Source: Fibrisoma limi BUZ 3
Lineage (GTDB): Bacteria > Bacteroidota > Bacteroidia > Cytophagales > Spirosomataceae
DNA length: 64,000 bases
Reading direction: 5' to 3'
Assembly (NCBI RefSeq): GCF_000296815.2
Contig: NZ_CAIT01000009.1
Span: 930,001 to 994,000, forward strand
The position numbers and the translations under genes were made by a program. The notes under the pieces were generated by a model. That model did not search any database, was not told the origin of the DNA, and saw only the letters and a program-made list of their open reading frames with translations. Shown here piece by piece: positions 7,630-58,104 of the stretch; the first letter of the stretch is position 1; every line of letters starts with the position of its first letter.

Positions 7630-7630
7630 A

Positions 7631-7708
7631 GGAGAAAAGGAGGAAGGGGAGAAGGAAGTGACCAGCGGTTGTTCCTTTTCTCCTTTTCTCCCCTTCCTCC
7701 TTTTCTCC
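7631..7708. repeat. Purine/pyrimidine hairpin between convergent genes (copy 3)
   Basis: Arms at 7631-7653 and 7686-7708 are perfect 23-bp inverted copies made only of G/A on one side and C/T on the other, with a 32-base loop. They lie just after the stop of the thioredoxin-fold gene and just before the end of the convergent DUF58 gene, as expected for a bidirectional terminator. Confidence 0.8.
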
Positions 7709-7712
7709 TCTT

Positions 7713-8624: not shown

Positions 8625-8749
8625 AATCTGTACCGGACCAGCGGTCCGCTCTATACGCTCTGTACCGTTGCTAACGAAGGAATTTACCTAAACGTACCTT
8701 TTTCTGATAAGATCAACTGAAAACAAAGATATGAACAGCGGACCGTGAG

Positions 8750-8830
8750 GAGCCGTGTGAGGGAAAACTTTCACGCACGGTTCTGAAGACCAGCCGCCGA
8801 GTCGCCCCGGCGGCTGAGTTTAATTTATAC
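8750..8830 (+). ncRNA. Group II intron 3' remnant (domains V and VI)
   Basis: Positions 8750-8783 form a 34-nt group II intron domain V: GAGCCGTGTGAGG, a GAAA-like loop, and CACGCACGGTTC pairing back, including the catalytic AGC triad and the standard length. A second hairpin with perfect 9-bp arms CAGCCGCCG and CGGCGGCTG (8791-8799, 8808-8816) fits domain VI, followed by TTATAC as a possible 3' splice end. No reverse transcriptase and no domains I-IV are seen upstream, where only about 125 bp separate it from the DUF58 start. It is therefore a decayed fragment, not an active intron. Confidence 0.75.
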
Positions 8831-8850
8831 AATCGACCCGCCGACGCGGT

Positions 8851-8979
8851 ATGTCTAGCTATTCGAAGGGCAAAGGCAATTCTGGTCTACGGCTACCCGG
8901 TGGCTACGGGAGCCGACGACAATACCACGACATATTTGGCAAGATTGCGGTTTACTTTGTCATCGTTTGGGATGAGTAG
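8851..8979 (+). CDS. Possible small protein or exon remnant after intron
   Basis: A 42-codon open frame starting MSSYSKGKGNSG and ending AVYFVIVWDE, directly after the intron remnant. The N-terminal half is rich in Ser, Gly and Arg and the C-terminal ten residues are hydrophobic. I do not recognise it. It may be the 3' part of a gene that the intron once interrupted, or chance. Confidence 0.2.
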   Translation: MSSYSKGKGNSGLRLPGGYGSRRQYHDIFGKIAVYFVIVWDE

Positions 8980-9362
8980 AAGCATAAAGCAACTTCAGGA
9001 AATGTCACGAATCAGAATTTTTCTTTACGGGATTCTCAGGAAGCGATCCTCAATGAATTTATCAAGTGCTTTTAGGCGAAGCCTTCTCCATTTCAGCTCA
9101 AAAAGCTCAAATGTGTTATACTAATATAAGTTAATGACTGCGCTACCAGTGCGGCTTAATGCTGAATCGAACTGTCGAAGCCGTCAGAATAAGTTAAACT
9201 AAAAAGCACCCGTCAACCTATTCAAGTTATCACGGGGATGCAAAATTATACTCGCACAATCAAACGATTTCAGGTTAAAAACTGAGCCAAAAGCTTCTTA
9301 ACCATGACTGTAAGAAAGCTCAGCAAGCGGTACATGTTACCGATTGGATCCTGTGAGCTGGT
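8980..9362. other. Intergenic stretch, nothing recognised
   Basis: About 380 bp between the intron remnant area and the end of the ECF sigma gene. Both strands have only short frames without family features. I see no RNA gene or repeat. Confidence 0.5.
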
Positions 9363-9941
9363 TTACCGCTTGGTGCTTATCCGTATCCGATAATCCGCTC
9401 GTAACGCTTTTAAACTACGGAACAAAACGTTATACACCGATTGAGGTGAGATCTGCATTATTTGCCGAATCTCGCTATACGTTTTGGCTTCAAAAAAATA
9501 AAGCTGTACCATCTGTTGTTGACGACGAGGCAGCGTACGTAAGGCCCGCTCGATGAGTGCTACCTGAAGTTGTTCTTCTTCTACGTTGACATAGTCCTCT
9601 TCGGAAGACGGGCACATAGGGTGCATTTCATGGGTCACTTCGCTAGACATCTGTTGTTTATTTAGGCGTCGAACGATGGAATGGCGCAGGGCATTGGCCA
9701 GGTAATAGCCGGCAGGAGCCTTGGCATTAAGCGTTTGCCGGGATTGCCAGATGGTTAAAAATAAGTCCTGGATGGTGTCTTCAACTAACTCGGCATCATT
9801 CGTTAAGCGCAGCGCGTACCGCTTTAGCGCCGGATAGAAACGTACATAAAGCTGGCCAAAGGCGGTCTTGTCTCCTGACAAGGTTTGCTGCCAAAGGGCT
9901 TTATCCGACGCCGAAGCATGCAAGGAAAGGTTCCGGTTCAT
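9363..9941 (-). CDS. ECF-type RNA polymerase sigma-70 factor
   Basis: Sigma factor of the extracytoplasmic function group with sigma region 2 (FGQLYVRFYPALKRYA, then AELVEDTIQDLFLTIWQSR) and region 4 (ALRTLPRRQQQMVQLYFFEAKTYSEI, then SPQSVYNVLFRSLKAL, the helix-turn-helix that reads the -35 region). The ATG at 9941 gives 192 residues, normal for the family; an upstream ATG at 10046 would run into lutB and is unlikely. No anti-sigma factor or SusCD pair is next to it. It lies downstream of lutB on the same strand with a 67-bp gap, so co-transcription is possible. Confidence 0.9.
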   Translation of the reverse strand: MNRNLSLHASASDKALWQQTLSGDKTAFGQLYVRFYPALKRYALRLTNDAELVEDTIQDLFLTIWQSRQTLNAKAPAGYYLANALRHSIVRRLNKQQMSSEVTHEMHPMCPSSEEDYVNVEEEQLQVALIERALRTLPRRQQQMVQLYFFEAKTYSEIRQIMQISPQSVYNVLFRSLKALRADYRIRISTKR

Positions 9942-10008
9942 AAAAAGATAAGGGGGAGTTTTACGAGGGCCTATGATCGGGTCGTACGTTATAGGTGTAT
10001 GCCTCAGA

Positions 10009-11382
10009 TTAATTCGTTCGTCCACGATTGGCGTACCAATCACCAAAACTTTTTCGGGCTGGAAGTGGCATCTCTCGGCCTATATACCAGGGATTAAACC
10101 GATGGTTGACCAGCCACGGAAACTGCCGAAGTGTCCAGCGACCGAACCGGCCAGCCAGACGATACAGCCGCGGACTGGTCAGGAGCCAGCTTAACCCATT
10201 CATACTGGCCGTCTTACTAGCCGGCGCCAAGCCTGCTGCCACAATAACCTGCCGCCATTTCCAGAGTTGCTTGTCCAGATCAATCTTGACGGGACAGACA
10301 TGGGTACATGATCCGCACAGGGTAGAGGCAAATGGCAGGTCAGCATGTTTTTTCAGGTCCAGATTGGGGGATAGCACCGAGCCGATTGGCCCAGCTATGG
10401 CGGTGTGGTAGCTGTGGCCGCCACTACGCCGGTAAACTGGACATGTGTTGAAGCAAGCCCCGCAGCGGATGCACTTGAGCGATGATCGAAAGTCAGCGCG
10501 TCCCAACTGGTGACTGCGGCCGTTGTCCACCAGGATGATGTGCATCCGCTGACCCGGCCGGGGTTTGGCAAAGTGGCTGGAGTACGCCGTAATGGGCTGC
10601 CCCGTGGCGCTGCGGGTCAGTAAGCGCAGAAAAACGCCCAGGTGCTCTTGAGCTGGAATCACTTTTTCAATGCCCATGCACGCGATGTGCACATCAGCCA
10701 GGTGAGCCCCCAGATCAGCATTCCCCTCATTGGTACACACCACAAAGGCCCCGGTTTGGGCAACGGCGAAGTTAACCCCGGTTATAGCCACGTTTGCGTG
10801 CACGAACTTCTCCCGCAGGTGCTGACGAGCTATTTCGGTCAATGCTTTAGGGTCAATTATCCCGGCTGGCACGCCCAGATGTTGATGAAATGTCTGGCCA
10901 ACATCTTCTTTTTTAAGATGAATGGCGGGCAGTACAATGTGGCTGGGTGGTTCCTGGCGTAGCTGGACAATCCGCTCGCCCAGATCCGTGTCTACAACCT
11001 CAATGCCCTGCTTGATGAGGAACGGATTGAGGTGACACTCTTCCGTGAGCATCGACTTGCTCTTGACGATACGCGCTGCGCCATATTCCCGTAAAATAGC
11101 CAGCACAATCTGATTATGTTCATTCGCATCAGCCGCCCAATGTACTTCTACGCCGTTCCGGTGGGCACTTTGCTCAAACTGCTCCAGATACTGGTCTAGC
11201 TTGGATAAGGTATGTTCTTTAATCTGGGACGCCAGCTCGCGCAGGTGTTCCCATTCCGGCAGACCATGAGCCGCTTTATCGCGTTTCTGGCGAATCCACC
11301 AAAGGGTTTCGTCGTGCCAGTTCGTGCGTTGCGTGTCAGCTACGAACTGCCGGGCGGCCGCTGCGTGATCAAGCTGGTTCAT
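10009..11382 (-). CDS. lutB: L-lactate utilisation iron-sulfur protein LutB
   Basis: LutB (LldF) family subunit of the iron-sulfur L-lactate oxidation complex that converts L-lactate to pyruvate. An N-terminal LUD domain (KSKSMLTEECHLNPFL; VAQTGAFVVCTNEGNADL) is followed by two 4Fe-4S ferredoxin motifs, CIRCGACFNTCPVYR starting at Cys304 and CGSCTHVCPVKID starting at Cys356, and a C-terminal DUF3390-like tail. The 457-residue length fits. Its start overlaps the end of lutA by 14 bp, so the two are translationally coupled. The third usual gene, lutC, is absent next to it. Confidence 0.93.
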   Translation of the reverse strand: MNQLDHAAAARQFVADTQRTNWHDETLWWIRQKRDKAAHGLPEWEHLRELASQIKEHTLSKLDQYLEQFEQSAHRNGVEVHWAADANEHNQIVLAILREYGAARIVKSKSMLTEECHLNPFLIKQGIEVVDTDLGERIVQLRQEPPSHIVLPAIHLKKEDVGQTFHQHLGVPAGIIDPKALTEIARQHLREKFVHANVAITGVNFAVAQTGAFVVCTNEGNADLGAHLADVHIACMGIEKVIPAQEHLGVFLRLLTRSATGQPITAYSSHFAKPRPGQRMHIILVDNGRSHQLGRADFRSSLKCIRCGACFNTCPVYRRSGGHSYHTAIAGPIGSVLSPNLDLKKHADLPFASTLCGSCTHVCPVKIDLDKQLWKWRQVIVAAGLAPASKTASMNGLSWLLTSPRLYRLAGRFGRWTLRQFPWLVNHRFNPWYIGREMPLPARKSFGDWYANRGRTN

Positions 11383-26858: not shown

Positions 26859-28208
26859 ATGCGTACCATCACCGATCAGGCTATCAAATGCCTGTTGAAA
26901 GATGCCCGTTCGGCTGGCCCAACCCCCATTTACCTCGTTTATCGCTACGAATACACCCGGTTTAAGGTATCAACCGGCCAATCAATCGCGCCTGATCTGT
27001 GGGATACGACCAACGGCCGGGCGCGTACTGACGTAAAGAACCGGGCCGTACTGCGAGACAACGAAACGATAAACGCTCACCTCGACCGCCAACGCTCGGC
27101 CCTACGTACGGTTCTGAACCGGCTGCAACTGGCAGGGGTACCAATCACGAACGACCTCATCAAGCAGTATTTTGACAAAGAGGTAGGCCGGAAGGAAAAG
27201 AAGGTAGCCGTTCAGGATGCTAAAGAGTCGTTTACAGCCTATATCGTTCGGTTTGTAGAGGAGGCAAAAGCCGGGAAACGATTGAACGCTAAAGAGGCCA
27301 AATATGCGCCTTATACGTTGGCCGGGTACATGAAACTAAAGCGCATTCTGGAGAACTACCAGGCCGCAACCGGCAACCCGATTGACTACGACGCCTACAC
27401 CCTCGCCTATTACGATGCCTTTAAGTTATGGCTGACTAATCGGGGGCTAACGCTCAACTACGTCGGTACGCTGCTGAAAGACCTGAAAGTAATGCTCAAG
27501 CAGTCACATCACGACGGAATGCATGAAAACACGATATACCAACATCCAAAGTTCAAGAAACTGGTCGAGGACGTGGATAATGTTTATCTGACCGACGATG
27601 AACTAACCGCACTCTTTACCCTAAACCTGTCGGCAAACGCACGGCTCGACCGGGTTAGAGATTTGTTTCTGATCGGAGCGTATACCGGCCTGCGTTTTTC
27701 CGATTTCAGCGACCTACGGCCCGAGAATATCACGCATAACGGCCGTATTTTGACCCGTAAGGCACTCAAAACAAACGGGCGGGTTTCCATACCCCTTAAC
27801 CCAAATGTACTGTCCATACTGGCTAAATACGACGGCGTTCCCCCGCGCACCATCACCAACCAGAAGATGAACGACTACATCAAAGAATTGTGTCGGCTGG
27901 CTGGTATCGTGGAAAAGGTAGAGGTGAGTCGTACTGTTGGCGGCAGTCGTCAAACTCGTTACCTAGACAAGTGCGAGCTGGTTACTACCCACACCGCTCG
28001 CCGGTCATTTGCCACCAATGCCTATTTAGCCGGCGTGCCGACCGTGGCCATTATGAAATGTACCGGCCACAAGTCAGAAACAGTCTTTCTGCGGTACATC
28101 AAAATCAGTCCGGAACAAAACGCCTTACTGCTGCTCAATCATCCGCATTTCGGAGGAATACACGATACTCAAAACAGCCAGATCATACCAATGAATAAAG
28201 TAGCCTGA
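26859..28208 (+). CDS. Tyrosine integrase
   Basis: Site-specific recombinase of the Bacteroidota integrase type, which cuts and joins DNA at att sites. An N-terminal arm-binding domain (about residues 1-110), a SAM-like core-binding domain (120-220) and the catalytic domain (240-440) can be seen. Catalytic residues are Arg279 (TGLRFSD), His378 and Arg381 (HTARRSF), His404 (GHKS) and Tyr413 (FLRYI). It lies 180 bp inside the left boundary of the island, in the normal position for the integrase that targeted this tRNA-Thr gene. 449 residues is a little longer than average, with no sign of damage. Confidence 0.95.
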   Translation: MRTITDQAIKCLLKDARSAGPTPIYLVYRYEYTRFKVSTGQSIAPDLWDTTNGRARTDVKNRAVLRDNETINAHLDRQRSALRTVLNRLQLAGVPITNDLIKQYFDKEVGRKEKKVAVQDAKESFTAYIVRFVEEAKAGKRLNAKEAKYAPYTLAGYMKLKRILENYQAATGNPIDYDAYTLAYYDAFKLWLTNRGLTLNYVGTLLKDLKVMLKQSHHDGMHENTIYQHPKFKKLVEDVDNVYLTDDELTALFTLNLSANARLDRVRDLFLIGAYTGLRFSDFSDLRPENITHNGRILTRKALKTNGRVSIPLNPNVLSILAKYDGVPPRTITNQKMNDYIKELCRLAGIVEKVEVSRTVGGSRQTRYLDKCELVTTHTARRSFATNAYLAGVPTVAIMKCTGHKSETVFLRYIKISPEQNALLLLNHPHFGGIHDTQNSQIIPMNKVA

Positions 28209-28253
28209 TCAGGCTCAGCAACGATCTGATAAACTATACATCACAGAAATTTT

Positions 28254-29279
28254 ATGGAAGCAATTGAAACAGCGGCATTACAAAAGATTGACGAAGCTCG
28301 CGATTACATTGTAAAGTATGCATGCGAATTACCAGGTTTATTATCGGGTATTAATTTACCGATTCCGAGTTCACGAGACGAAAATATTGGTAAAACGGAA
28401 TGTAGCAAAGCAGAATACAAAGCAATCACAGGGCTACAGTTTAGGCAGGATGTGCTACATGGACTTTCAATGAAAATAGCCTGCGAGGTCAATTGCATTA
28501 TAGAAGATGTTTGTCTAGAAATTAATGAGAACGCAATCCGGATGCTGGGTAAGGAGCGTCGAAAAGCTTACGCGGCTAAATGCGAAAATGCGTTTAATTC
28601 TTTTTCAGAAGCTAGAAGTAGGCTATACGTACATTCTGGGGACCTCGTAAAAAATCTTGAGAATAATAGCCAATTACCTCAGATCATAACTCTAAATGAA
28701 GATCAAGGTAAGTTTATTCCGATTGGTGATACTAAATATGGTAAGAAAGTAAGTGAAATAGTAAATGAGGTGTTATCCGATGCACAACTAGCGACTGAAA
28801 TACTCGAAGAGCAGTTCATAAAACTTAAACATAGTATTGAAAAGAACCTACCCGTCAAACTTAAAGACGAACTAGCCGAAGATATATCAACCAACTACTC
28901 AACGACAAACCAAAGCGCTGAAGAGAGTCAAAAAATAACTGATGAAAAGGGAACCATTACAGATATCTTAAGTGGCGCTAGTACCGAAAAAGAACCCGAT
29001 AATGGAGTTGATAAAAACAAACTTATTTGGAATTGTAAACCAGCTATTGCGGGTTTCATCATTTCAGAACTTATTAGAGCTGGATATATTGAACCCCCTA
29101 TAACAAACGGCGAATTGAGTCTTACTAAGTTGGCAAACATTTGTAATAGTTCATTCCGCTTCACCAAGTATAACCCTAGTCCTAATAGCTGGCGCAATGT
29201 TGTAGATACAGAACGGAATACATTATCTGAAGCTAACCGCACTAAATTAACATTACCAGACCTTGATCAATTATCTTGA
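28254..29279 (+). CDS. RteC-like C-terminal domain protein, otherwise unknown
   Basis: 341 residues, strongly AT-rich coding and unlike its neighbours in base use. The first 250 residues are mostly helical and charged without a family I recognise. The last 80 residues (LIWNCKPAIAGFIISELIRA, then LSLTKLANICNSSFRF and a Ser/Asn-rich loop) resemble the C-terminal domain of RteC, the regulator of transfer in Bacteroides conjugative transposons. The gene follows the integrase by 45 bp. A regulatory role in excision is an inference; a HMM comparison with RteC would settle it. Confidence 0.5.
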   Translation: MEAIETAALQKIDEARDYIVKYACELPGLLSGINLPIPSSRDENIGKTECSKAEYKAITGLQFRQDVLHGLSMKIACEVNCIIEDVCLEINENAIRMLGKERRKAYAAKCENAFNSFSEARSRLYVHSGDLVKNLENNSQLPQIITLNEDQGKFIPIGDTKYGKKVSEIVNEVLSDAQLATEILEEQFIKLKHSIEKNLPVKLKDELAEDISTNYSTTNQSAEESQKITDEKGTITDILSGASTEKEPDNGVDKNKLIWNCKPAIAGFIISELIRAGYIEPPITNGELSLTKLANICNSSFRFTKYNPSPNSWRNVVDTERNTLSEANRTKLTLPDLDQLS

Positions 29280-29292
29280 CTTTATCTCCAAG

Positions 29293-29312
29293 ACTACTGT
29301 CATGACAGTAGT
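29293..29312. promoter_or_regulatory. 20-bp perfect palindrome, candidate operator
   Basis: ACTACTGTCATGACAGTAGT is a perfect palindrome without loop or T-run, 61 bp before the start of the excisionase-like gene. It looks like a dimer-binding operator rather than a terminator. Confidence 0.55.
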
Positions 29313-29373
29313 ATGATAGTTAGCACCTATTAAGTTTCGAGAAGTTTGCTGAAACAATCAGAACAATATATCC

Positions 29374-29694
29374 ATGTTTCAGCACACAATTCAGGTTTCT
29401 TCTCTCACTCCTGACCAGTTCGGCGAATTGGTAGAGGCTCGCGCCTACAGTGGCACGATGCGAGCCCTGGCCGATTACAAACCTGCCAAGGACCCAGATT
29501 TGCCCCCATTATCCACCAGAAAGCAGACTGCTAAATTTTTAGGGGTTTCCCTTGTGACTCTAAATGATTGGTCTAAAGACACTGAGGACCGCCCGGCCAT
29601 TCTTACTCCTCTGAAAATAAGTGGAAGAGTTCGATACCCTCGTGAAAGAGTACTAGCTGCGTTGCGGGATGTACGGAGATATAAAAAATCATAG
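29374..29694 (+). CDS. Excisionase-like helix-turn-helix protein
   Basis: 106-residue DNA-binding protein of the helix_turn_helix_17/Xis type. The region LSTRKQTAKFLGVSLVTLND followed by a short wing and VRYPRERVLAAL matches the winged helix of excisionases common next to integrases in Bacteroidota elements. It probably steers the integrase towards excision. The coding strand has chromosomal-like base use, in contrast to the gene before it. The next gene begins three bases after its stop. Confidence 0.7.
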   Translation: MFQHTIQVSSLTPDQFGELVEARAYSGTMRALADYKPAKDPDLPPLSTRKQTAKFLGVSLVTLNDWSKDTEDRPAILTPLKISGRVRYPRERVLAALRDVRRYKKS

Positions 29695-29705
29695 TCATGG
29701 CTGCT

Positions 29706-29978
29706 ATGTTCGACCTCCCCCAGCCATCCACCGCGACGCCCATTTTAGCGACATCGATCGCCAGAGAAATCCGTGCAGTAGGTGGACGAGTCTGGTTGAT
29801 TCAAAAAACTGAATTTGGACTAATCCTTCGCTGCGAGATTGGGGCACGACAGCTGCGTCTCGTCCTTCAATCTCTGACGGAACCCGCTGCCGCAGTACAT
29901 CAAGAGAAAGGTGTCGTCAGTCATTTGGTACACGATTTGGACGGGTTGCGCCTTTTACTACGAGTTATCGCTGATTAA
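29706..29978 (+). CDS. Small hypothetical protein in primase operon
   Basis: About 90 residues (first ATG at 29697, second at 29706). It has no recognised family. The visible part is a mixed alpha/beta sequence (GGRVWLIQKTEFGLILRCEI, then LRLVLQSL) without signal peptide or membrane segment. It sits between the excisionase-like gene and the next small gene with almost no spacing, so it is part of the same operon and probably serves the element itself. Confidence 0.6.
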   Translation: MFDLPQPSTATPILATSIAREIRAVGGRVWLIQKTEFGLILRCEIGARQLRLVLQSLTEPAAAVHQEKGVVSHLVHDLDGLRLLLRVIAD

Positions 29979-29984
29979 CGCCCC

Positions 29985-30323
29985 ATGATAGATTGTAAAA
30001 CTCTTCCGGCTTCTTTCGTCGGCAGGTCGGGCCAGTTTTATGTTCGAGTACCGCGGGTAGACGGTGGGTTTTGGCCCCAAACGGCAGTTTATTCCTCCGT
30101 CAAAAGTTACGACCAGCGAAGTGAGCGGCCCATTTACATTGACATTTCGGAGGCATCAGAGGATTTTCTAAAAGAACAAAAAATTTACCAAGATAGCCTG
30201 ACAACGACCCCGCCAGCTTGCGAGCCTGACCGGGATGAGACCGACCTAGGCCTCACTCCGCAGCGCCTGCTCTGGCAGGAGCGGTTTAAAACTCACTTAA
30301 CGCGACATGACACCAAAAGTTAG
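29985..30323 (+). CDS. Small hypothetical protein in primase operon
   Basis: 112-residue protein without recognised family. The middle is rich in aromatic and charged residues (GQFYVRVPRVDGGFWPQTAV) and the end is acidic, then basic. Its last 17 bases overlap the start of the primase-like gene in another frame, which suggests translational coupling. No signal peptide. Confidence 0.6.
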   Translation: MIDCKTLPASFVGRSGQFYVRVPRVDGGFWPQTAVYSSVKSYDQRSERPIYIDISEASEDFLKEQKIYQDSLTTTPPACEPDRDETDLGLTPQRLLWQERFKTHLTRHDTKS

Positions 30324-32841
30324 CATTTTCGAAAATGTTGCACCCGCATCCTATAAGGGTGATTACCCAGCTAGTGCCGTGCTGGTGGTAATGCGTTCAA
30401 GGTTCGAGCATGAAACCAAACTCCTGCGTACGTTTTCCGATGCAGAAGCAGCCCAAGCGTACAAAGCGGGTAAGCGCGATAGCGAAGGTCGGTTAGTTGA
30501 GCCAGGACATTTCTGGGGTGTCACCTGGTCCGGCACGTTCAAAGGCGGGAAGAAGGCGCAGGATCTGGAGCAGCATAGCGGATTGATCTGCATGGACGTG
30601 GACGGCTTGAACGGGGATCAAGTGACTAAACTCTTCAACCAACTTTGTACCGATGTATTCACTCACATCACGTTTGTGAGCCCCTCAGGAAACGGAATAA
30701 AATGGGTTGTAAAGATTGACATCAACCACGTTGATGAACACAAACTGTTTTTTCGGCAGCTTTCCGATTACTTACATGACAGTTATGGACTGACACGAAA
30801 ACAAGATGTTACAAAGGGTACAAAGCCACAGATTGACGCCAGTGGTTGCAACGTGGACCGGCTATGTTTTTTGCCCTATGCACCCGACGCTTATTATAAT
30901 CCCAAAAGTGAGGTGATTCCCCTGCTGGAGGAGTATTGTCTACCACCTCAGCCTACACACGAAGAACCAGGAGGCCGACTGAAAAAGCAGGCCCTTCCGG
31001 AAGATGATACCTACTGCCGTATCAACGAATACTTAACGCGGCTTCATCACACTAACACTGACCTGACGGCGAACTACGAAGATTGGGTCAAGATAGGGTT
31101 GGCCTTCGCTAGTTTAGGGGAAGAAGGCCGGTCTGGCTTTCACGAAGCCAGTCGGCTGCACCCAAAATATAGCTATCAGGAAACAGAAGCCAAGTTTAGT
31201 GAACTGCTACGTAACCGCAGTGGACAAGTCAACATTGGTACCTTCTTTCACATGGTTGATGAGGTACTAGGTAAACCGCATTCATGGCCACAAAAGGAGG
31301 GCTCTGCAAGATACGAACAGACAACAGACGATGATAGACAGGAAGATTGGCCAGAACCCGAACTCTTAACAACACCACTTTTGTCGGTTTTGTCAGTACC
31401 CCCCTCTAGCATTCCTGAAAAATTACGGCCGTGGTTAACCGATATAGCGAATCGAATGAAGTGCCCGCTGGACTATGTAGCCTCAGCCGCAATCGTAATG
31501 ATTTCTTCTCTGATTGGGACCCGGCTCGCCATTAAACCTAAACAGAAAGATAACTGGACGGTAGTACCTAATCTGTGGGGGGCCGTTATCGGAGACCCTT
31601 CCACGAAGAAAACGCCCTCAGTTAGTGAGGTTTTTAAACCCCTAAAGCAGCTGGCCCGGCAAGCCGCTGAGGACCACAAGCAACGCCTGCAGGAATACGA
31701 GGCTCAACACCTTCAATACGAAATGCAGAAAAAAATTTATCAAAAGCAGGAGCAAGACCGGCTAAGTGGGAAGCCAGTCAAAACCTTCATTGCTTACCCC
31801 ACAGAACCCCAAAAGCCAACCGAAAAACGGTACTGGAGTAACGACGTCACCGTTGAAAAGTTGGCTGAATTACTTAATGATAACCCAACCGGGTTGCTCA
31901 TCGAGCGTGACGAACTGACGGGGCTACTCGCAGGGTGGGACCGATTGGGCCGGGAACAGGACCGGGCGTTTTACCTGGAGGCCTGGAACGGTTACGGACT
32001 ATATACGTCAGATCGGATTGGCCGAGGTACTATACACGTCCCCCATTTATGCGTTAGCTTATTCGGAGGCATACAACCGGCGAAGCTTTTAGGGTATCTA
32101 CAGGCCGCTACCGGCTTCGATAATGATGGCTTCGTACAACGTCTGCAGCTAGCCGTTTATCCGGACAAGCCCCAGTGGGAATATACGGATGAATATCCCG
32201 ATAAACAGGCCCGTGATATAGCCTACAAGGTAGTTCAACAACTTGCCATTAGTGATCTAACCAAGTACGGATATGAGGCTGACGAATACAATCGGTACCC
32301 GTACACGCATTTCGACAACGAAGCTCAGGAGATATTCAAAGAGTGGTATATCAATTGGGAAACCAACGTACTTCCCAATGAAACGGGGCTTTTGCTGGAA
32401 CACTTTGCAAAATACCCCTCTCTAATTGCTAGCGTGGCCCTTATTTTTCATCTGATTTCCTGTGTGGAAGAGGATTCGTCAACGGCATCGTCTAAATTAG
32501 TTTCGGCTCAGGCCGTTCGAATGGCAGTGAACTGGTGCATTTATCTGCAAAGCCATGCTCGGCGTATCTATGGGCTGCTGGATACGGCTAGCATTGAATC
32601 GGCCAAAGAACTGCTCAAACACCTGAAAGCGGGTGACTTAAGCGACGGGTTCAAAGCCCGCGATGTACAACGGAAGGGGTGGATGCACCTGACTAGCGCC
32701 GAGGCAGTGGAGGCCGCATTACAAGAGCTAGTCAATCGGCAATGGTTAAAAGAAATTGTTGCAACCTATAATAAGACAGGCAGACCAGAGGCTCCATCTT
32801 ACAAAATACACCCTAAAATTTTATTGAAAACGCGTGGTTGA
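30307..32841 (+). CDS. Primase/helicase-like replication protein (BT4734-PriCT2-DUF3987)
   Basis: 844-residue protein with three parts. Residues 1-220 form a BT4734/VirE-N-like domain (SGLICMDVDGLN, FVSPSGNGIKWVVKID) related to archaeo-eukaryotic primases. Residues about 235-330 resemble PriCT-2 (YEDWVKIGLAFASLGEEGRSGFHEASRL). The rest is a DUF3987 helicase-like ATPase domain with GDPSTKKTPSVSEV as P-loop-like motif and IERDELTGLL as acidic motif. Such genes replicate the excised form of integrative elements and phage satellites. A repeat of a 17-bp motif lies inside the gene at about 31379 and again after its stop. Confidence 0.8.
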   Translation: MTPKVSIFENVAPASYKGDYPASAVLVVMRSRFEHETKLLRTFSDAEAAQAYKAGKRDSEGRLVEPGHFWGVTWSGTFKGGKKAQDLEQHSGLICMDVDGLNGDQVTKLFNQLCTDVFTHITFVSPSGNGIKWVVKIDINHVDEHKLFFRQLSDYLHDSYGLTRKQDVTKGTKPQIDASGCNVDRLCFLPYAPDAYYNPKSEVIPLLEEYCLPPQPTHEEPGGRLKKQALPEDDTYCRINEYLTRLHHTNTDLTANYEDWVKIGLAFASLGEEGRSGFHEASRLHPKYSYQETEAKFSELLRNRSGQVNIGTFFHMVDEVLGKPHSWPQKEGSARYEQTTDDDRQEDWPEPELLTTPLLSVLSVPPSSIPEKLRPWLTDIANRMKCPLDYVASAAIVMISSLIGTRLAIKPKQKDNWTVVPNLWGAVIGDPSTKKTPSVSEVFKPLKQLARQAAEDHKQRLQEYEAQHLQYEMQKKIYQKQEQDRLSGKPVKTFIAYPTEPQKPTEKRYWSNDVTVEKLAELLNDNPTGLLIERDELTGLLAGWDRLGREQDRAFYLEAWNGYGLYTSDRIGRGTIHVPHLCVSLFGGIQPAKLLGYLQAATGFDNDGFVQRLQLAVYPDKPQWEYTDEYPDKQARDIAYKVVQQLAISDLTKYGYEADEYNRYPYTHFDNEAQEIFKEWYINWETNVLPNETGLLLEHFAKYPSLIASVALIFHLISCVEEDSSTASSKLVSAQAVRMAVNWCIYLQSHARRIYGLLDTASIESAKELLKHLKAGDLSDGFKARDVQRKGWMHLTSAEAVEAALQELVNRQWLKEIVATYNKTGRPEAPSYKIHPKILLKTRG
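31379..31395 (+). repeat. TTTTGTCGGTTTTGTCA motif, copy 1
   Basis: 17-bp motif made of two TTTTGTC half units, inside the primase-like gene. Identical copies lie at 32868-32884 and, inverted, at 32970-32986; a near copy at 45860-45873. Confidence 0.75.
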
Positions 32842-44786: not shown

Positions 44787-45860
44787 TCATAATATTTTAC
44801 TCTGCCTTCGGATAACGTCAGCCCGGACGGCATATTTTCCTGACCGATCAGCCCCGACATGAATACCAATGACTCTGCTTCCATTCGCTGAAAGCAGCAC
44901 TGCCCCGGCGCTGCCTGGACCAGTATCACACAAATGATACAGAAAATTAGAATCAATTTTCTGTACCTTACAATCGGCTGTCTGAGTTACAACAAATTTG
45001 CGTGTATCAGCCCGAAACATGATGATGGACAATGATTCATCAATACGTGGAGCCCGTGTTGATAGATTTAGGAAGCCGTGTTTCGCTCCTGGATTACCTC
45101 TCACACGCAACAGCAAATGCCTTAGTTCAGAACCTGTTCGGGCTTGTTCCACTGCCGGTAGAATGACATTATAACTAGTCAATTTACCTCCGTTGTTCAT
45201 TCTAAATTTTATGGTACTTGCTGGCAGTTCACTGCCAAAATCTAGGGTAAGTAGCAGATTTTCACTTACTAAAAAGGCTGTTGATTGAGAAATCTGTTTA
45301 CCAGCTTTATCATAAAATAAAAGTTGGCCCACTGACTCAGATGCTTTCTTTAGTACGCCAGGTGGTAACGTGTCAGCACTGATTGCATCATCGTTTCCTA
45401 TTATGCCAGGTGTTAGCTTGCCAAATTCTGAAGGCAGGGTTGGCCCACTGCCAGGTCTGCGTTCGGCAAGATATCGTCTAAGACTGTCTTTTACCGATTG
45501 ATCAGTGATTAAGCCAGCTTCTAACAAAAACTTTAAATTCTCGGCAGCTTTGTCAGGATTGCCAGTTTTAATCATCTCTAATATTCGGGTTTGCTCAGAC
45601 CGCTGTTTTTCTAGGATCCGTTGCTCACTACCATTGATACTGCTTACTATAGCGTTACCAGCGGCTGCCATTGCTGCTGTTAATATTGCCACTACAACAG
45701 GGTTACGCCATGCTGATGTTGTCGCATCATTGGTTTTAAGTTTAAGCTCAGCCTCTTTTACTGCCTGCTCCCGCTCCTTTAAAGTCAACTCTCTATCTCG
45801 AAACGCTTTTTCAGTTTCCCACTTTTCTCGCTCCGAAGGTGGGTTTTGTTCCTCTGCCAT
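44787..45860 (-). CDS. Membrane-anchored trypsin-fold protein, probably catalytically dead
   Basis: 357 residues: an N-terminal charged coiled coil (residues 8-45), one membrane helix (about 53-75), a helical linker (80-135), and a C-terminal domain with trypsin-like landmarks. STAFLVSENLLLTLDFG (193-209) aligns with the GTGFLV...LLTAAHC block, but the catalytic His is not there. GPGSAGAVL (314-322) aligns with PGSSGSP, with Ala in the place of the nucleophile Ser. The following SRVIGIHVG is the usual last strand. A pseudo-protease acting by binding is the simplest reading. A near copy of the TTTTGTC motif overlaps its start codon. Confidence 0.65.
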   Translation of the reverse strand: MAEEQNPPSEREKWETEKAFRDRELTLKEREQAVKEAELKLKTNDATTSAWRNPVVVAILTAAMAAAGNAIVSSINGSEQRILEKQRSEQTRILEMIKTGNPDKAAENLKFLLEAGLITDQSVKDSLRRYLAERRPGSGPTLPSEFGKLTPGIIGNDDAISADTLPPGVLKKASESVGQLLFYDKAGKQISQSTAFLVSENLLLTLDFGSELPASTIKFRMNNGGKLTSYNVILPAVEQARTGSELRHLLLRVRGNPGAKHGFLNLSTRAPRIDESLSIIMFRADTRKFVVTQTADCKVQKIDSNFLYHLCDTGPGSAGAVLLSANGSRVIGIHVGADRSGKYAVRADVIRRQSKIL

Positions 45861-51482: not shown

Positions 51483-52511
51483 CTACAGTAAGTCTTTTAC
51501 ATCTTTGTTCTCTCCATACTCTTCGGCGACAGTTTTGATCAAACTGTCCATAGTTATATTACCTCCTCCACCTAACTTTAAAATTCGGATAGCTTCGACC
51601 CATTGCCCCTTACCAGACTGGCCTAGATTAACTAGAGATAAGTTTCCACCTGCCGCTATCCATATTTGATTATCCCGTAATCCTCCTGGATAAAGCTTAC
51701 ACATGACTTCAACTAGCTTTTGCTCTCGGGTGCGTTCTATAGTGGCATCTGGAAAATCCAGTTGCTCCAGCAGGCCGAACAGGAAGGCGGCAACGTTGGC
51801 TGATGCATATGGTTGGGAGCCTTTGCTGTCCATTTGACCTTTATTGTCTACAAGATCGGAAATGCCGCGAAGCAGCAGGGTTTTAACCAAGGGCCGCATG
51901 CGGCAGACTTCCAGAAAACCGAGGCCTTCCATTTCAATGGCTAGGGCATGGCTAGCATTTTGTTTAAGGAATTGATGAAGGTCTGAATCAATAGAAGCAT
52001 CTACCTTTTCACCAGAAGCAATGGTGCCGGTGTAGGTGCCTATAACGGGAGCAAATTCTGGGTTCAGTAGCTTCTCCGTTGTTTGTTTCCAAGATTCGCT
52101 TTTTGCATACTGACCGGCCAGCCTTTCCAACTCATAAGAGGAAGCACCAAATTGTGGCCGGGATTTAAAATTGTTTCCTTCGGCCTTTCCTCGCTCGTAG
52201 CCGTAAACGTCCCGGCCTATGACAATGTCTCCGACTTTTACATCCTTCAATCCACCGGCCACACCTGCAAAAAAGACGTATTCTGGATTAAAATGGGCGA
52301 TGGCGCGTTCGGTTTCAATGGCTGCATTCACGTTGGTTTGATCTGTCCTGGCAACGATTACTTCAAGGGTTTGATTGTTGAAGTTATAAGTGCCTTTGGT
52401 ATAGTCGGTGCCGGTTGCAGGGTGTGCTAATGGCTCAATGTTTATTAAATACTGCTCAATGGCGAGACGCTCCACTTCTAGCGCGGTAAGGATAAGGATT
52501 GGTTTCTTCAT
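51483..52511 (-). CDS. Nucleoside phosphorylase-EAD1 fusion, predicted effector
   Basis: 342 residues. The N-terminal part (1-255) belongs to the purine/uridine phosphorylase and MTA/SAH nucleosidase superfamily: GVAGG (83-87), the substrate loop EMEGLGFLEVC (193-203) and the catalytic Asp region RGISDLVD (215-222). The C-terminal part (about 262-342) is an effector-associated domain 1: CKLYPGG, IWIAAGGNLS, G-Q-W-V-E-A-I-R-I-L. The preceding gene ends in the same kind of domain. The enzyme is predicted to cleave nucleosides or nucleotides upon activation. Its start overlaps the preceding stop by four bases. It is the last gene of the operon. Confidence 0.85.
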   Translation of the reverse strand: MKKPILILTALEVERLAIEQYLINIEPLAHPATGTDYTKGTYNFNNQTLEVIVARTDQTNVNAAIETERAIAHFNPEYVFFAGVAGGLKDVKVGDIVIGRDVYGYERGKAEGNNFKSRPQFGASSYELERLAGQYAKSESWKQTTEKLLNPEFAPVIGTYTGTIASGEKVDASIDSDLHQFLKQNASHALAIEMEGLGFLEVCRMRPLVKTLLLRGISDLVDNKGQMDSKGSQPYASANVAAFLFGLLEQLDFPDATIERTREQKLVEVMCKLYPGGLRDNQIWIAAGGNLSLVNLGQSGKGQWVEAIRILKLGGGGNITMDSLIKTVAEEYGENKDVKDLL

Positions 52512-54994
52512 AAAATGTCTTGTAAATTCTTTAGTTTTTCATTGCCTGCATAAGCTTCCCGCATTTTCTTGACTAGCTTATTTACTGTGGGTGACCCACT
52601 ATTACGCAATATTCGAACAGCATGATTCCATTTTTCACGACCGGAGCCGGATGTATAAAGTTGCGACAAGTCACCACCTGCACTTTCCCAAAGACCATCT
52701 TGTTCCGGGCCACCGGGAAACAGTTTAGAAGCAATCTCCAAAAACTCATTCCACCATTCCTCTAAACTAATAGCATCTCGTTTCAATCCGCTGGCAGAAA
52801 GTTTGAGTCGTTGCCAAAAGCCGAGTAAGTGGCTAGATTTTAACAAAGCTGGAACCAAGTCATTTCTATGCATGCTATTGTTGTACAGCTGGTCAAGTAC
52901 CGTTTTCCATTTGTTTTTAGAAACAAGCCAACCCAATTCCTCCGCTTCTGCTAATGAAAAGTGATGGTTCTGTATCAACTGCTCTGCGTGATTTTCTCCC
53001 AAACCGGGCAATACATCGAACAGCCGTAGTTTCTTTGTGAGCGGAATGGTTTTGCTGCTAATAACCTGCTGTTGCACTTTTTGCGATTGCACTCCCTTTT
53101 TCAACTCAGATTCGAGGTTGTTGTAGCTTAATTTACTAGTGGCAAGCTCATCAATTAGTTCGACAAGGGTTGCTGCAATGAACTCGGTACGTGCTTTCTC
53201 GGGAAGCTTAAGCCAGATGGACGCCCGTTGGGGGTAGTCTTTCAGGCTGCTATACTTTCCAATGCTTATGGCATTCAACAGAGTTTCGCTAAAAGCATTT
53301 CCCGTTAGCAGGTGATCAAGAATTTTGAAAAGGGTGTGCTGTGGGTTGGGAATGCCTGACCACACTTCACTGCCTTGTTCAATGGCTGCTTTCCAGCACT
53401 GTTGCCAACCTTCGCTGGTAATGTCGATGTCCTTCAGTAACTTGCTGTTTTTGGCAATTAATTTTCCAGCGATACGGTGCAAACGAACGTCGGGTTGGTT
53501 GGCTGCTACAGATACAAAAGAGCTTGCGCTGATGCTTTCGGACAAAGCCTCTAGCCCTGAGTTATGACCTTCATCTGTGTCTATACGCAACTGTGCTTCG
53601 ATGGCCTTTTCAGCAGAATAACACTGCGCTGCCACTTTCGCATGTAGCACAAGCCAACCCTTTTGTTCGGCCATGTGCAGCACCGCTTCGGCTACTGATG
53701 TTTCTAGCTTTGAAATTTTTTGAGTCAGCTCATTTTCAGCATCATCCGGCAACCAGGAAGCGTGTTGGGCAATCAACGCAGGTTCGTTTTGCACCCATTG
53801 CCATAAGATTGGGGCATCGCTAGGCTGTCGTTTTTTCAGGCGGTTATTTATATAGTCCAAAACTATTTTGGTCCACCAGTTTCTATTTTCGGCTAACAGA
53901 GCTTTCACCAGAATACCTCCACCTTCCTTCGCATATTTTCCTTGAAGCAGATGATTAGTAAGCCAGTCACACACCGCATCCGAAGTTGAAGGTATTGCAT
54001 CCGGGAATCCTTTCCAGCTCTGATACATAAGAGCCGTGAACATATTTAGCGGAGCATTGGGAATAGCTTGAAGAATTGACGTCAACAACCTATTTTTTCC
54101 TTCGAGGCCAACCTTTTCATTAGGACTAACTTGGGAAATAAAATGTGCCAAAACTAAGAGTTGGTTTAACTCACTCTTGTCTATTTGGTGGTAAGTCTTA
54201 CCATAATCCTGAAGCTGGTTGAGCTTTTCGATAGATTCGATTTTCGGGGCAAAGTCGTCAATCAAAACTTGTAGAGATACAGCCTCCTTGATATTACCCA
54301 TCAGCCAGTGTGCGGCTGTGGACTTTAAAGGTTCGGTTTCTTTAAAATCGACTATACGAAATGAATACCTTTCCCACAGGGTCTTAGCGTCTTCAGGAAT
54401 GTATAGCAGGTTGAGGTATTCGTTTTTGACATAATATGGATTAAATGCCGCTCCAATTTTCAACATTAGCTTTTCTTCAAACGGTAGCTGAGGCCAGATT
54501 CTGGCTACCCATTCCCAGTATCCTTCCTCCCCCAACCAAACAAATGGCTGGTTTTGCATTAAAGCATTAGTGGCGGCTACTTCTCTTCCGTCCACTGCTC
54601 CAATTGCCGCCATAGCTTCTGGTGAGTGGTACTCCAGAAGGGGCATTTCTGCTTCTTTATTAATGGTAGGTAGGTGATATTGAAACAGGTCACTAAGGTT
54701 GTGCACCTGGTGCAGGTCCGCTTTTGGGATAAACAGGGCGTGCGAAAACACTCGCCCTGAACGCAGCTTCGGACTTTTATCAGGAAACGTTTTAATCAGC
54801 AGAAAGTGATTTTCGACAAAGAAACCTCGTACCACTGGGCCAGGCAAAACCCCTCCCTCTGGCCGGTCGGCCAAATCGGTGTAACCGCTTACCCGTCTAA
54901 ACAACTCATTTTTTTCATCGGAAGCAGCCAGTAGGTTGTGTCCAGAGGTTTTCCCCGATATTTCTCCAAATATAGCCTGGTGAATAACTATCAT
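52508..54994 (-). CDS. GAP1-like GTPase-associated protein with C-terminal EAD1
   Basis: 828 residues. The N-terminal 200 residues (IHQAIFGEISGKTSGHNLLA, then RVSGYTDLADRPEGG and VVRGFFVENHFLLIKTF) resemble the GAP1-N domain, described in GTPase-centred conflict systems. The middle 500 residues are helical, rich in Trp and Leu, without catalytic motifs. The final 85 residues (KLFPGGPEQDGLWESAGGDL, then GREKWNHAVRIL) are an EAD1 domain like that of the next gene. It may link GTPase state to the EAD1-bearing enzyme. It overlaps both neighbours by four bases (54994/54991 and 52511/52508). Confidence 0.8.
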   Translation of the reverse strand: MIVIHQAIFGEISGKTSGHNLLAASDEKNELFRRVSGYTDLADRPEGGVLPGPVVRGFFVENHFLLIKTFPDKSPKLRSGRVFSHALFIPKADLHQVHNLSDLFQYHLPTINKEAEMPLLEYHSPEAMAAIGAVDGREVAATNALMQNQPFVWLGEEGYWEWVARIWPQLPFEEKLMLKIGAAFNPYYVKNEYLNLLYIPEDAKTLWERYSFRIVDFKETEPLKSTAAHWLMGNIKEAVSLQVLIDDFAPKIESIEKLNQLQDYGKTYHQIDKSELNQLLVLAHFISQVSPNEKVGLEGKNRLLTSILQAIPNAPLNMFTALMYQSWKGFPDAIPSTSDAVCDWLTNHLLQGKYAKEGGGILVKALLAENRNWWTKIVLDYINNRLKKRQPSDAPILWQWVQNEPALIAQHASWLPDDAENELTQKISKLETSVAEAVLHMAEQKGWLVLHAKVAAQCYSAEKAIEAQLRIDTDEGHNSGLEALSESISASSFVSVAANQPDVRLHRIAGKLIAKNSKLLKDIDITSEGWQQCWKAAIEQGSEVWSGIPNPQHTLFKILDHLLTGNAFSETLLNAISIGKYSSLKDYPQRASIWLKLPEKARTEFIAATLVELIDELATSKLSYNNLESELKKGVQSQKVQQQVISSKTIPLTKKLRLFDVLPGLGENHAEQLIQNHHFSLAEAEELGWLVSKNKWKTVLDQLYNNSMHRNDLVPALLKSSHLLGFWQRLKLSASGLKRDAISLEEWWNEFLEIASKLFPGGPEQDGLWESAGGDLSQLYTSGSGREKWNHAVRILRNSGSPTVNKLVKKMREAYAGNEKLKNLQDIL

Positions 54995-55818
54995 AGTTTT
55001 AGAGCTTTCTCGATGAGCCGAGTCAGGTCTTTTTCTTTTGGATTATCGTCCAGCACCAGAAATCCAAAATTTTGAGGCATTTCGTCCAGGTATTTGTCGC
55101 GGGCCTCGTCAGTTTTCAGCGGGAACTCCTGAGCAGAAATTCCAACTATATTAAAGGCTCCTGGCAACCAGTTGGCTGCAATGAAATGGGCGAACAGCGG
55201 CATCTTCTGTTGCAAGATTTCTTCCGGTCTCAAATTAGTGTTCAGTTCGTCCCAACAGGTTAATGCAATGAGCAACCGTGGGGTATCGATGGAGTCTTTC
55301 ATGCCTGTGCCGCGTGCGTGCAGCAGCACTTGCAATAGCTCGATGAACTGGGATTGATCGGATGTACCGGAGGATGGAGCCTTTGTTTCTTTTTGGTCTT
55401 TTACAGCATACCCTTTCTTGCTTAGGTCGAAGCGGTGTTCAATTTCAGACGGGCGAATAAAGAGGATCCACCTATCGTTCGTTTTCGCCCGATCAATCCA
55501 CGTTTTGTCGTATTCCATTAGGGCCACGAGATCGCGTACCTGCTCCCCGCCATAATCTTTGCAATGCAACACAAATTCCTGCCCTTCGTAAATAACCGGA
55601 ATTTTGACCTCCAAATTATCGGTAGAAGGAGTCGATTCCGTTTCTTCCCCGTTAGCTAATCGCCTGTAGGCGCTTTTGATGCCATCGATATTTTCAGGTG
55701 CGGAAGCCTGTTGCAACTTTCCTTTTTTATCAACCAGGCGAAAATATAATTGGGCCAGAAACGTGGTCTTCCCCGATCCAGGCGGTCCAATGATCAAAAT
55801 CTCGTTATTTGTTGCCAT
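54991..55818 (-). CDS. P-loop GTPase 1 of the conflict operon (double-GTPase type)
   Basis: 275 residues from the ATG at 55818; a longer frame from 55872 would overlap too far into the upstream gene. The P-loop GPPGSGKTT lies at residues 11-19, the G3-like DYGGEQ follows an extended beta segment (FVLHCKDYGG), and TCWDEL takes the place of the NKxD motif. This build matches the DO-GTPase1 type, which comes paired with a second GTPase. It overlaps the upstream GTPase gene by 14 bp and the GAP1 gene by four. Confidence 0.82.
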   Translation of the reverse strand: MATNNEILIIGPPGSGKTTFLAQLYFRLVDKKGKLQQASAPENIDGIKSAYRRLANGEETESTPSTDNLEVKIPVIYEGQEFVLHCKDYGGEQVRDLVALMEYDKTWIDRAKTNDRWILFIRPSEIEHRFDLSKKGYAVKDQKETKAPSSGTSDQSQFIELLQVLLHARGTGMKDSIDTPRLLIALTCWDELNTNLRPEEILQQKMPLFAHFIAANWLPGAFNIVGISAQEFPLKTDEARDKYLDEMPQNFGFLVLDDNPKEKDLTRLIEKALKL

Positions 55819-56788
55819 AGCTGCCTCGGTATAAAAAGAAGAAATCGTCTGTTTGAATGGCTGCGGGTGCAATGTGCAGCGGCTGCGGGTTGGCCAGTTG
55901 GTCGAGCACTGTTTTAGTCACGCCTACATTATTTATGTGACAAAGCTGGTCGGAGTCGGACTTCGAATAATTACTGATCTCCAGTGATACGGCTCCGGGA
56001 AAGTTTTCAGACAGGCTTCGTTTGATGGTTTCTACAATGTTTTCACGCATCTGCTGGGCTAGGTCGGCTTTCGACCATACAATCACCACCGGTCTACCTC
56101 GTAGTCCACTTTTCACCTGTTCGGCTAATTGAATTATGTCACGCCCCGCCCTGCCCCGTTGCTGTATGATTGCCTCGCAGTCTACAAATAACAGGAACGC
56201 ATGGGCGTTGTCATAGATCCAGCGGGCATTCTCAGCAGCCGGGTCATTCACGTTGTCAGCCCATTTGGAAAATACTTCGCCCGATGAGTCAGCGAATAAA
56301 ATGTCATGTAAAAAGTTATTATAGCGTAGCGCGAAGTGATATAGGCTATAATAATCCTTGTCGGAAGGCGTAGCATCGGGATTTCGCACCGTGCCATCTT
56401 CCTGCACCTGCAACGTTTTGGCCTGCAATTCCCACCCATTCAATGTATAACTTCCGGCAAAATCCCAGTTTTCGATACGCTTGCCGTTAAACAACAGCGA
56501 GTACAGCATAGCTAAGTAGGTGGTCTTTCCCGCCCCGGACGATCCTATCAAACCGATAATCTTAGGGGTACCTCGGTGCGTCAGAAGGTCAAGCTGTTCG
56601 GGCCGCAACCATTCCCCCGTCCACGGGATGGACGTAGCCGTTGCCGACTTTTTAGTGGTTTTAGCAGGTACTTCTGCGGCTCCTGCATTTTCAAAATACT
56701 GGCATTGCTCATGCAGTGGGCCAGCTAGTTCAAGACAGAAATGGTCAGGTGCATAGCAACCTTCTTTGCTACATCTTCGCTTTGCCAT
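55805..56788 (-). CDS. P-loop GTPase 2 of the conflict operon, zinc-binding N-terminus
   Basis: 327 residues. The N-terminus holds Cys6, Cys11, Cys18, His26 and Cys29, a probable zinc site (CSKEGC...HFC...H..C). A flexible Ala/Thr-rich linker leads to the GTPase domain with P-loop GSSGAGKTT (82-90), G3-like LFADSSGEVF, and WSKADL as NKxD-like motif. The pattern fits the DO-GTPase2 type. It likely acts as a nucleotide-dependent switch together with GTPase 1. The start lies eight bases after the stop of the helical protein gene. Confidence 0.82.
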   Translation of the reverse strand: MAKRRCSKEGCYAPDHFCLELAGPLHEQCQYFENAGAAEVPAKTTKKSATATSIPWTGEWLRPEQLDLLTHRGTPKIIGLIGSSGAGKTTYLAMLYSLLFNGKRIENWDFAGSYTLNGWELQAKTLQVQEDGTVRNPDATPSDKDYYSLYHFALRYNNFLHDILFADSSGEVFSKWADNVNDPAAENARWIYDNAHAFLLFVDCEAIIQQRGRAGRDIIQLAEQVKSGLRGRPVVIVWSKADLAQQMRENIVETIKRSLSENFPGAVSLEISNYSKSDSDQLCHINNVGVTKTVLDQLANPQPLHIAPAAIQTDDFFFLYRGSYGNK

Positions 56789-56796
56789 GTCCTGCG

Positions 56797-58104
56797 TTAT
56801 TTTGTGGTTGCCAGTTTATGTGCTTGCAACCCATGAAACAACCACACCGCCAGATCGGACACTGTCAGCTTGGCTGTTTTGTTGACACCCGTTTCTGTAA
56901 AAAAATCTGAGGTGTTACCCAACTTCACAACATTAGACCATGCACTAAGCAAGGGTTTTCGTGCGTCTCCTTCTAAAGCATATTGATTCAAAGCTAATCG
57001 AATGTTCTTGTCAAGGTTGCTGCTATCTGTCAACCAGTCAGTGAGCAGGCGTTCTTCCTCTGCTTGCTCCCTGTGCACGTCTTTCAATGTTTCCCGAAGC
57101 AGGTAATCCACACTTTCCGGGTAAGTAGCCTCCACCTGTTCGGCAAGATCGAGTGCCATGGAAACGGCCGCGTTCAATGGATCTAAGCTGCGGTAGCTTG
57201 AATTAAGTGAACGGGAATACAGCGATTGCTTCCACCAGAGGAGTTCGCTGCGCTTGTTGTTGGCTGTGATACTGCTAGCTAACGAGGTATTTAGGTTTTC
57301 GAAAAACGGTTGAATTTGAGCGAAATAACTACCCAGGCTCTTTTGTATGGAGGTGGTAATAGTGGAAAGGGATCTATTTTGCTGTGATAAAGCTGAATTA
57401 ACAACCTCGGTAATTCCTTCGGCCGAGTGTTCGGCCATGTATTTTGGCCATTCCCAATTGTTCTGCCCATGATAGTGCGGATTATTTCCTCCCCCTGCAT
57501 CATTTTTCCACCCTTTGTAAACCATCGCATTGAGCAAATGTACTTTCAGGGCTTCTTCATCGATTTGTGATGCTTTTATTCCAGAAATAGAAATTTCAGC
57601 TCCATTAAATTTAATTGTCTGAAGTTTTCGGCTAATACCCCATGCCGCCTGTCCATTTTCCTCCGTTTTGTCGGCCAACTCCTGAAGAAGACCGCTGATC
57701 ACGCTCTCCTCTGAACCCAGTTTGTAATGCCTGACCACATCACGAGCTGTCAGCCAAATTAATGCTGCCGTGGCGGTATCCTCAATCGACAATTGGTTTA
57801 GCGATTCCAGGATCACTGCCCTAACGTATGTAGTGGATTTATCCTTGGTGGCAGTCACACTATTTTTAAAAGCAGACCACTTTTTAATGATGATCTCTTC
57901 CACCTGTTGAACCACTGGGTCGCTGTCTTTCACCTTCGGGTCGAGTGCGACAAGCGTAAACGGTATTATGTCTGCCTTTTCCTTCCTTTTCGTAAGGTAG
58001 GTAGTAATTTCCTTTACGGCCTTTTTCAGGCTTTCAACATTTTCCTGAACACCAGTTTTGATGTGCTGTTCGTTAAGATAAGCTTGAAGTATTGATTCAG
58101 TCAT
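56797..58104 (-). CDS. GASH-like helical protein, first gene of the conflict operon
   Basis: 435 residues, nearly all alpha-helical, with no catalytic motif. Segments such as ATAALIWLTARDVVRHYKLG, then LLWWKQSLYSRSLNSSYRSL and PLNAAVSMALDLAEQVEATY match the GTPase-associated system helical (GASH) type that accompanies paired GTPases. It may sense or scaffold; its Trp-rich interfaces suggest protein contacts. As the first gene of the operon its upstream 500 bp hold the promoter and a TGTCAcattTGACA inverted repeat. Confidence 0.72.
   Translation of the reverse strand: MTESILQAYLNEQHIKTGVQENVESLKKAVKEITTYLTKRKEKADIIPFTLVALDPKVKDSDPVVQQVEEIIIKKWSAFKNSVTATKDKSTTYVRAVILESLNQLSIEDTATAALIWLTARDVVRHYKLGSEESVISGLLQELADKTEENGQAAWGISRKLQTIKFNGAEISISGIKASQIDEEALKVHLLNAMVYKGWKNDAGGGNNPHYHGQNNWEWPKYMAEHSAEGITEVVNSALSQQNRSLSTITTSIQKSLGSYFAQIQPFFENLNTSLASSITANNKRSELLWWKQSLYSRSLNSSYRSLDPLNAAVSMALDLAEQVEATYPESVDYLLRETLKDVHREQAEEERLLTDWLTDSSNLDKNIRLALNQYALEGDARKPLLSAWSNVVKLGNTSDFFTETGVNKTAKLTVSDLAVWLFHGLQAHKLATTK

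Follow-up and report, generated by a model that had tools for sequence, protein, structure and literature searches.

A trypsin-like domain without its catalytic triad on a helical stalk shared with wall-hydrolase-like and other proteins

Computational analysis of the gene P0001, at positions 44787–45860 on the minus strand of the 64,000-nucleotide stretch of Fibrisoma limi BUZ 3 DNA studied here (the window), shows that the C-terminal domain of its protein is related by sequence to the trypsins, that this domain lacks the His-Asp-Ser catalytic triad, that the loss recurs in relatives, and that the stalk carrying the domain is shared with proteins that end in other kinds of domain. The gene encodes 357 amino acids plus a stop, starting from an ATG, and its features, all on the minus strand, follow one another in a simple order. 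Residues 1–50 (45711–45860) form a charged, presumably cytoplasmic stretch that is predicted to be helical from its sequence and in an AF2 model, where the helix runs from residue 10 to 47 and residues 11–40 (pLDDT 74–80) are the only confident part. As the initial annotation had described, a single hydrophobic helix follows this K/E/R-rich segment; it occupies residues 55–73 (45642–45698) and has a mean Kyte-Doolittle hydropathy of 2.04, with every other hydropathy window at or below 1.6. Next comes the conserved helical stalk, probably periplasmic, at residues 77–144 (45429–45632; ILEMIKTGNPDKAAENLKFLLEAGLI...PGSGPTLP), which is supported by its identity to a Massilia protein and by a hairpin profile. 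Profiles and alignments place the trypsin-like domain without a triad at residues 171–357 (44790–45350).

The trypsin-like relationship proposed in the initial annotation is borne out by sequence profiles. Taken on its own, P0001 matches Pfam Trypsin_2 weakly (E 0.0029; 18.8 bits, below the 27.6 cut-off), so the case for membership is made by its relatives and by profile-profile comparison: Massilia P0002 clears the Trypsin_2 cut-off (28.5 bits), Rhizobium P0003 clears that of Trypsin PF00089 (24.9 versus 20.6), and hhalign aligns the P0001 and P0002 domains with three intact trypsin-like relatives at 98.9% (E 2e-17, 157 columns), compared with 0.1% for a control with the stalk region of the same proteins. 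A four-sequence profile matched V8/Spl-type proteases in the PDB; the match to 7uxg has an E-value of 5.9e-7 over a best stretch of just 46 positions, and those to 1p3c (2e-4) and SplB (2.9e-4) each span most of the domain. Two AlphaFold models, both made from two-row alignments, were of unusably low confidence (mean pLDDT 39.9 and 37.1). A Foldseek search with such a model listed many trypsin-fold proteases, but no match had an E-value below 0.001 and the top three rows had a TM-score of 0.26; because none was significant we give the list no weight as proof, including its top match, 7sjy, a structure of RsgI9 (E 0.025). Support for the fold therefore comes from the sequence profiles, and these support a relationship of the C-terminal domain to the S1/Trypsin_2 trypsins.

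The loss of the catalytic His and the nucleophile Ser, also proposed previously, is confirmed by the alignments. The motifs that had been cited for it, TLDFG and GSAGA, lie at residues 205–209 and 316–320; Phe208 (45237–45239) occupies the His position and Ala318 (44907–44909), in the loop CDTGPGSAGA (311–320), that of the Ser. The third position is changed as well, with Arg247 (45120–45122) where Asp is expected, so that the triad reads Phe/Arg/Ala. When relatives were inspected for the same losses, the Massilia protein (P0002, from locus L008 of the genome collection), which is 44% identical to P0001 over residues 8–353, also proved to have none of the three catalytic residues; its triad positions are Phe, Ser and Ala, so it has the His-to-Phe and Ser-to-Ala changes in common with P0001. 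Thus, triad loss is not the decay of one gene. Rhizobium P0003, which is named a trypsin-like serine protease in its public record, has Tyr at the His position, Ala at the Ser position and, in an ambiguous register, either Glu or Ser at that of Asp; Yoonia P0004 has Ile, Ala and Ala. Replacement of the Ser by Ala is not universal, since L064 (genome G1769; Phe, Gly, Ser) and the stalk-less L032 (Phe, His, Ser) have no His or Asp in place but still have the Ser. The genome with L032 (L080:902–3280) also encodes two intact-looking relatives, L081 and L082.

Among 48 aligned trypsin-like domains His and Ser are both kept in 42, and His is absent from six (P0001–P0004, L064 and L032), which include all four of the stalk-borne domains (P0001, P0002, P0003 and L064). 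Asp is in its column in 39 of the 42, and its absence from L012, L018 and L022 may be misalignment. This set contains seven reference rows chosen as intact and some near copies (e.g. L041/L042, L036/L038 and L050/L052), and excludes L027, which has no recognisable frame, and relatives with no given locus. The frames of L002, L004, L006, L018, L022, L024 and L032 were picked by a pattern that demands His and Ser/Ala motifs, so these rows are not independent controls; with the six intact ones removed, His and Ser are kept in 36 of 36 intact-class rows. A tree of 39 domains (37 of the 48, without L041, L042, L045 and eight others, plus L081 and L082) requires three changes (bootstrap range 2–4), versus an average of 5.8 with shuffled labels. 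It groups P0001 with P0002 and L064 (86/94) and P0004 with L032 (99/98). Its grouping is unsure because some end branches are long (P0004 4.57, P0003 3.89, L064 3.05), and the triad columns were kept in, which may draw degenerate rows together. The tree suggests that trypsin-like domains have been inactivated more than once, but a single common origin of the degenerate ones, which we also considered, may still apply.

The loop around the missing nucleophile is retained, with six of the ten columns that are invariant among P0001–P0004 falling within residues 311–320 (hypergeometric p 1.5e-6, 167 ungapped columns), a retention that is partly ancestral because intact relatives conserve the loop too. 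In trypsins this loop forms the S1 pocket and the oxyanion hole, and we take Ala318 to be position 195 in chymotrypsin numbering and Asp312 to be position 189, at the base of the pocket. Cys297 and Cys311 are also invariant in P0001–P0004; both members of a cysteine pair that flanks the His strand in P0002–P0004 are missing from P0001. The number of cysteines after the membrane helix is even in P0001–P0004 and L064 (2, 4, 4, 4 and 4), a pattern that would fit disulfides formed outside the cytoplasm. Other stalk proteins have one (L023 and L037) or none (P0005, L065 and L076).

That even count is one of three observations which suggest that the N-terminus is cytoplasmic and the C-terminus periplasmic. 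The others are the wall hydrolases found on the same stalk (below) and the distribution of charge: the 20 residues preceding the membrane helix contain more K and R than the 20 following it in 12 of 14 proteins, a set from which L065, having no membrane helix, was left out and to which P0004 was added. P0001's own flanking charges are tied (4 and 4) and leave its orientation undecided, and L023 shows the opposite bias. Considering the set as a whole, we infer that the C-terminal part is displayed in the periplasm.

The stalk is more strongly conserved than the domain it carries; P0001 and the Massilia protein are identical at 66% of stalk residues 77–144 (45/68) and at 38% of the trypsin-like part (70/185). 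Stalk carriers were initially found in searches with whole or N-terminal alignments, and a profile of the hairpin alone then placed 14 of them above the best of 500 shuffles, although the scores cannot be treated as independent, since profiles from this family had been used to find the carriers. A hairpin profile built without P0001 gives it 76.8 bits, versus 7.2 for the best of 500 shuffles; L075 is marginal (10.2 versus 3.5 in shuffles). The N-terminus of Yoonia P0004 was considered as the same stalk and rejected (1.1 bits versus 6.0 in shuffles), and P0004 is not counted as a carrier because the hairpin profile gives it no support. Trypsin-like C-termini are found in P0001, P0002, P0003 and L064, Amidase_2 in P0005 and L075, SLT_2 in L065 (whose open frame has the hairpin part alone and no membrane helix), SH3 in L074 and an Exo_endo_phos nuclease domain in L030. 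L037 has a Glyco_hydro_19 match and L023 weak TPR-like matches, all below their cut-offs; no Pfam family was found in the C-terminal part of L031, and that of L073, which matches the hairpin, lay outside the Pfam scan. The stalk itself matches no Pfam family above cut-off in the scanned carriers. A separate observation is a Hymenobacter plasmid gene (L059:730–3681) whose single product combines a subtilase with a Trypsin_2 domain and which lies near a stalk-amidase gene.

The remaining carrier is encoded on a viral contig. L076 (L076:5863–6822, on IMGVR_UViG_3300033134_000021) joins the stalk to an endolysin-like domain (PHROG E 6.9e-6; no Pfam family) and lies between baseplate genes; of six nearby ORFs that were scanned, four have matches to tail or baseplate families. 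It was the one viral-contig match to the two-row stalk alignment A2, and searches of the viral contigs with P0001, alignment A1 or the intact-trypsin alignment A7 gave no relative. Stalk sequences gave no match in the phage search, and in plasmid searches either none or the Rhizobium protein alone. Among 295 genomes of the window's class, the two-row stalk profile matched only the genome of P0001 itself. For two families within the phylum of Massilia, an eight-row profile matched 3 of 97 genomes in one and 4 of 97 in the other, centre genomes included; the stalk is rare in the genomes searched. In the literature searched, mostly papers available without subscription, we found neither the stalk, nor the exchange of its C-terminal domains, nor P0001 itself. 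We propose that one type of membrane anchor, the stalk, is reused to display envelope domains that can be exchanged.

On these findings we think it somewhat probable that P0001 is a single-pass protein whose dead trypsin-like domain, held on a periplasmic stalk that serves as an anchor for exchangeable domains, binds without cutting. It would span the inner membrane once, with its charged N-terminal helix remaining in the cytoplasm and the stalk, followed by the catalytically dead domain, facing the periplasm. That domain keeps the loop of the S1 pocket and oxyanion hole, with Ala for the nucleophile and Phe for the His, and we infer binding without cleavage from this combination; it would hold a peptide or protein much as an engineered Ser-to-Ala protease does. 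The kept loop, the Ser-to-Ala change and the cysteine pattern are all consistent with a natural 'trap', a domain that binds in the periplasm, and the attachment of the stalk to envelope domains in other proteins (Amidase_2 in two of them, SLT_2, SH3 and the phage endolysin-like domain) favours this interpretation. Counting against it, our searches found no ligand, partner or conserved neighbour for P0001. A role as a binding module in signalling or defence, as the initial annotation had envisaged, is plausible, and any sensing or decoy function is putative. A bolder version, which we regard as unlikely, is that bacteria and phage share a polymorphic family of membrane-displayed envelope proteins in which wall hydrolases, nucleases and trypsin domains are exchanged on one conserved stalk, and that its trypsin members have more than once been disarmed into natural substrate traps. 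These would capture a periplasmic protease target, a protease inhibitor or an incoming phage protein, and what they captured would be reported or blocked at the membrane.

Three other readings of P0001 deserve consideration. Because the trypsin-like domain is less conserved, the stalk may be what does the work, and one could go on to regard the stalk and membrane helix as functional and the domain as a drifting relic; the difference in identity to Massilia (66% versus 38%) and the long end branches of several degenerate domains point this way, but the domain spans its full length in P0001–P0004 and L064 and its Ser loop holds those six invariant columns out of ten, and we find a relic quite improbable. 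That P0001 is an active protease with other catalytic residues is highly improbable. Viral trypsin-fold proteases do use another nucleophile, a precedent that is no direct point in favour here, and against it stand the triad positions themselves (Phe/Arg/Ala in P0001, Phe/Ser/Ala in Massilia) and the nearby Ser317, which lies one residue away from the nucleophile position and corresponds to Val in P0004.

It is also doubtful that P0001 is part of a conflict system, directed at phage or otherwise, whose decoy or dominant-negative effector would be the inactive trypsin domain, although such systems have been described with inactive trypsin domains as effectors (PMC7159879). Three of the 14 carriers lie beside defence or conflict genes, a raw count for which the neighbours of some carriers were scanned: L065, with its stalk hairpin and SLT_2 (MltB-like) transglycosylase, adjoins an Avs2 gene (L067:4838–6049 and 6692–10921), L074 adjoins type I restriction genes, and Rhizobium P0003 adjoins caspase and YLATT genes. 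The window itself holds, at 51483–58104 on the minus strand, a GAP1-N1-type GTPase conflict system with GASH, DO-GTPase2, DO-GTPase1, GAP1-N1 with EAD1, and a nucleoside-phosphorylase-EAD1 effector. That GTPase/EAD1 system is 5.6 kb from P0001, but three plus-strand ORFs and a transposase-like fragment (by eye) separate the two, so P0001 is not in its operon. Nor does P0001 match EAD1 or another adaptor in Pfam; the genome's only two EAD1 matches are both at window positions 51489–52762. PADLOC and PHROGs returned nothing for P0001, and by eye the ORFs at the Massilia locus include no defence neighbour and look like housekeeping genes. No vWA match was found in P0001, four small neighbours or the scanned genes at 51–58 kb, and no vWA or MoxR gene was recognised, partly by eye, among the ORFs at 38–58 kb. 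Elsewhere in the window, also by eye, a DUF58/vWA-like ORF lies 36 kb from P0001 (7713–8624, minus), and a tyrosine-recombinase-like gene followed by a VirE/primase-like gene at 26859–32841 may mark a mobile element.

Inactive trypsin domains are thus linked to peptidoglycan hydrolases and a nuclease by a stalk that has no Pfam model above cut-off and that is present on a phage contig as well. To our knowledge few bacterial pseudoproteases have been characterised, and the stalk carriers make up a delimited group of proteins that could be used to study the function of the common anchor and the reason for the inactivity of its trypsin members.

Inactive bacterial trypsin domains are themselves already known (PMC7159879, PMC4794232). 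In vWA-MoxR ternary conflict systems, trypsin-like domains in the effector position are called catalytically inactive, like that of P0001, and are proposed to be dominant-negative or peptide-binding; they are fused to a vWA component rather than to a membrane stalk (PMC7159879). NucA-trypsin systems (PMC7159879) and nuclease-protease immune pairs (PMC12799240) are further cases of bacterial immunity that involves trypsin-like domains, and some of these have membrane segments, but in the immune pairs the protease cuts and activates the nuclease (PMC12799240), whereas no nuclease partner was recognised for P0001. MamO is likewise a bacterial trypsin-like pseudoprotease with another function, but it is related to HtrA, has H116, D149 and T225 at the triad, binds metal and carries a C-terminal transporter domain (PMC4794232). 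RsgI9 of Clostridium thermocellum differs from P0001 in being an anti-sigma factor with a self-cleaving periplasmic domain (PMC12203970), and Pfam gave no match to a cytoplasmic anti-sigma domain in P0001. With no sequence relation seen between them, the two proteins are nonetheless alike in having a cytoplasmic part, one membrane helix and a protease-like domain outside, and the outer S1C domain of RsgI9 is reported to bind cellulose (PMC12203970).
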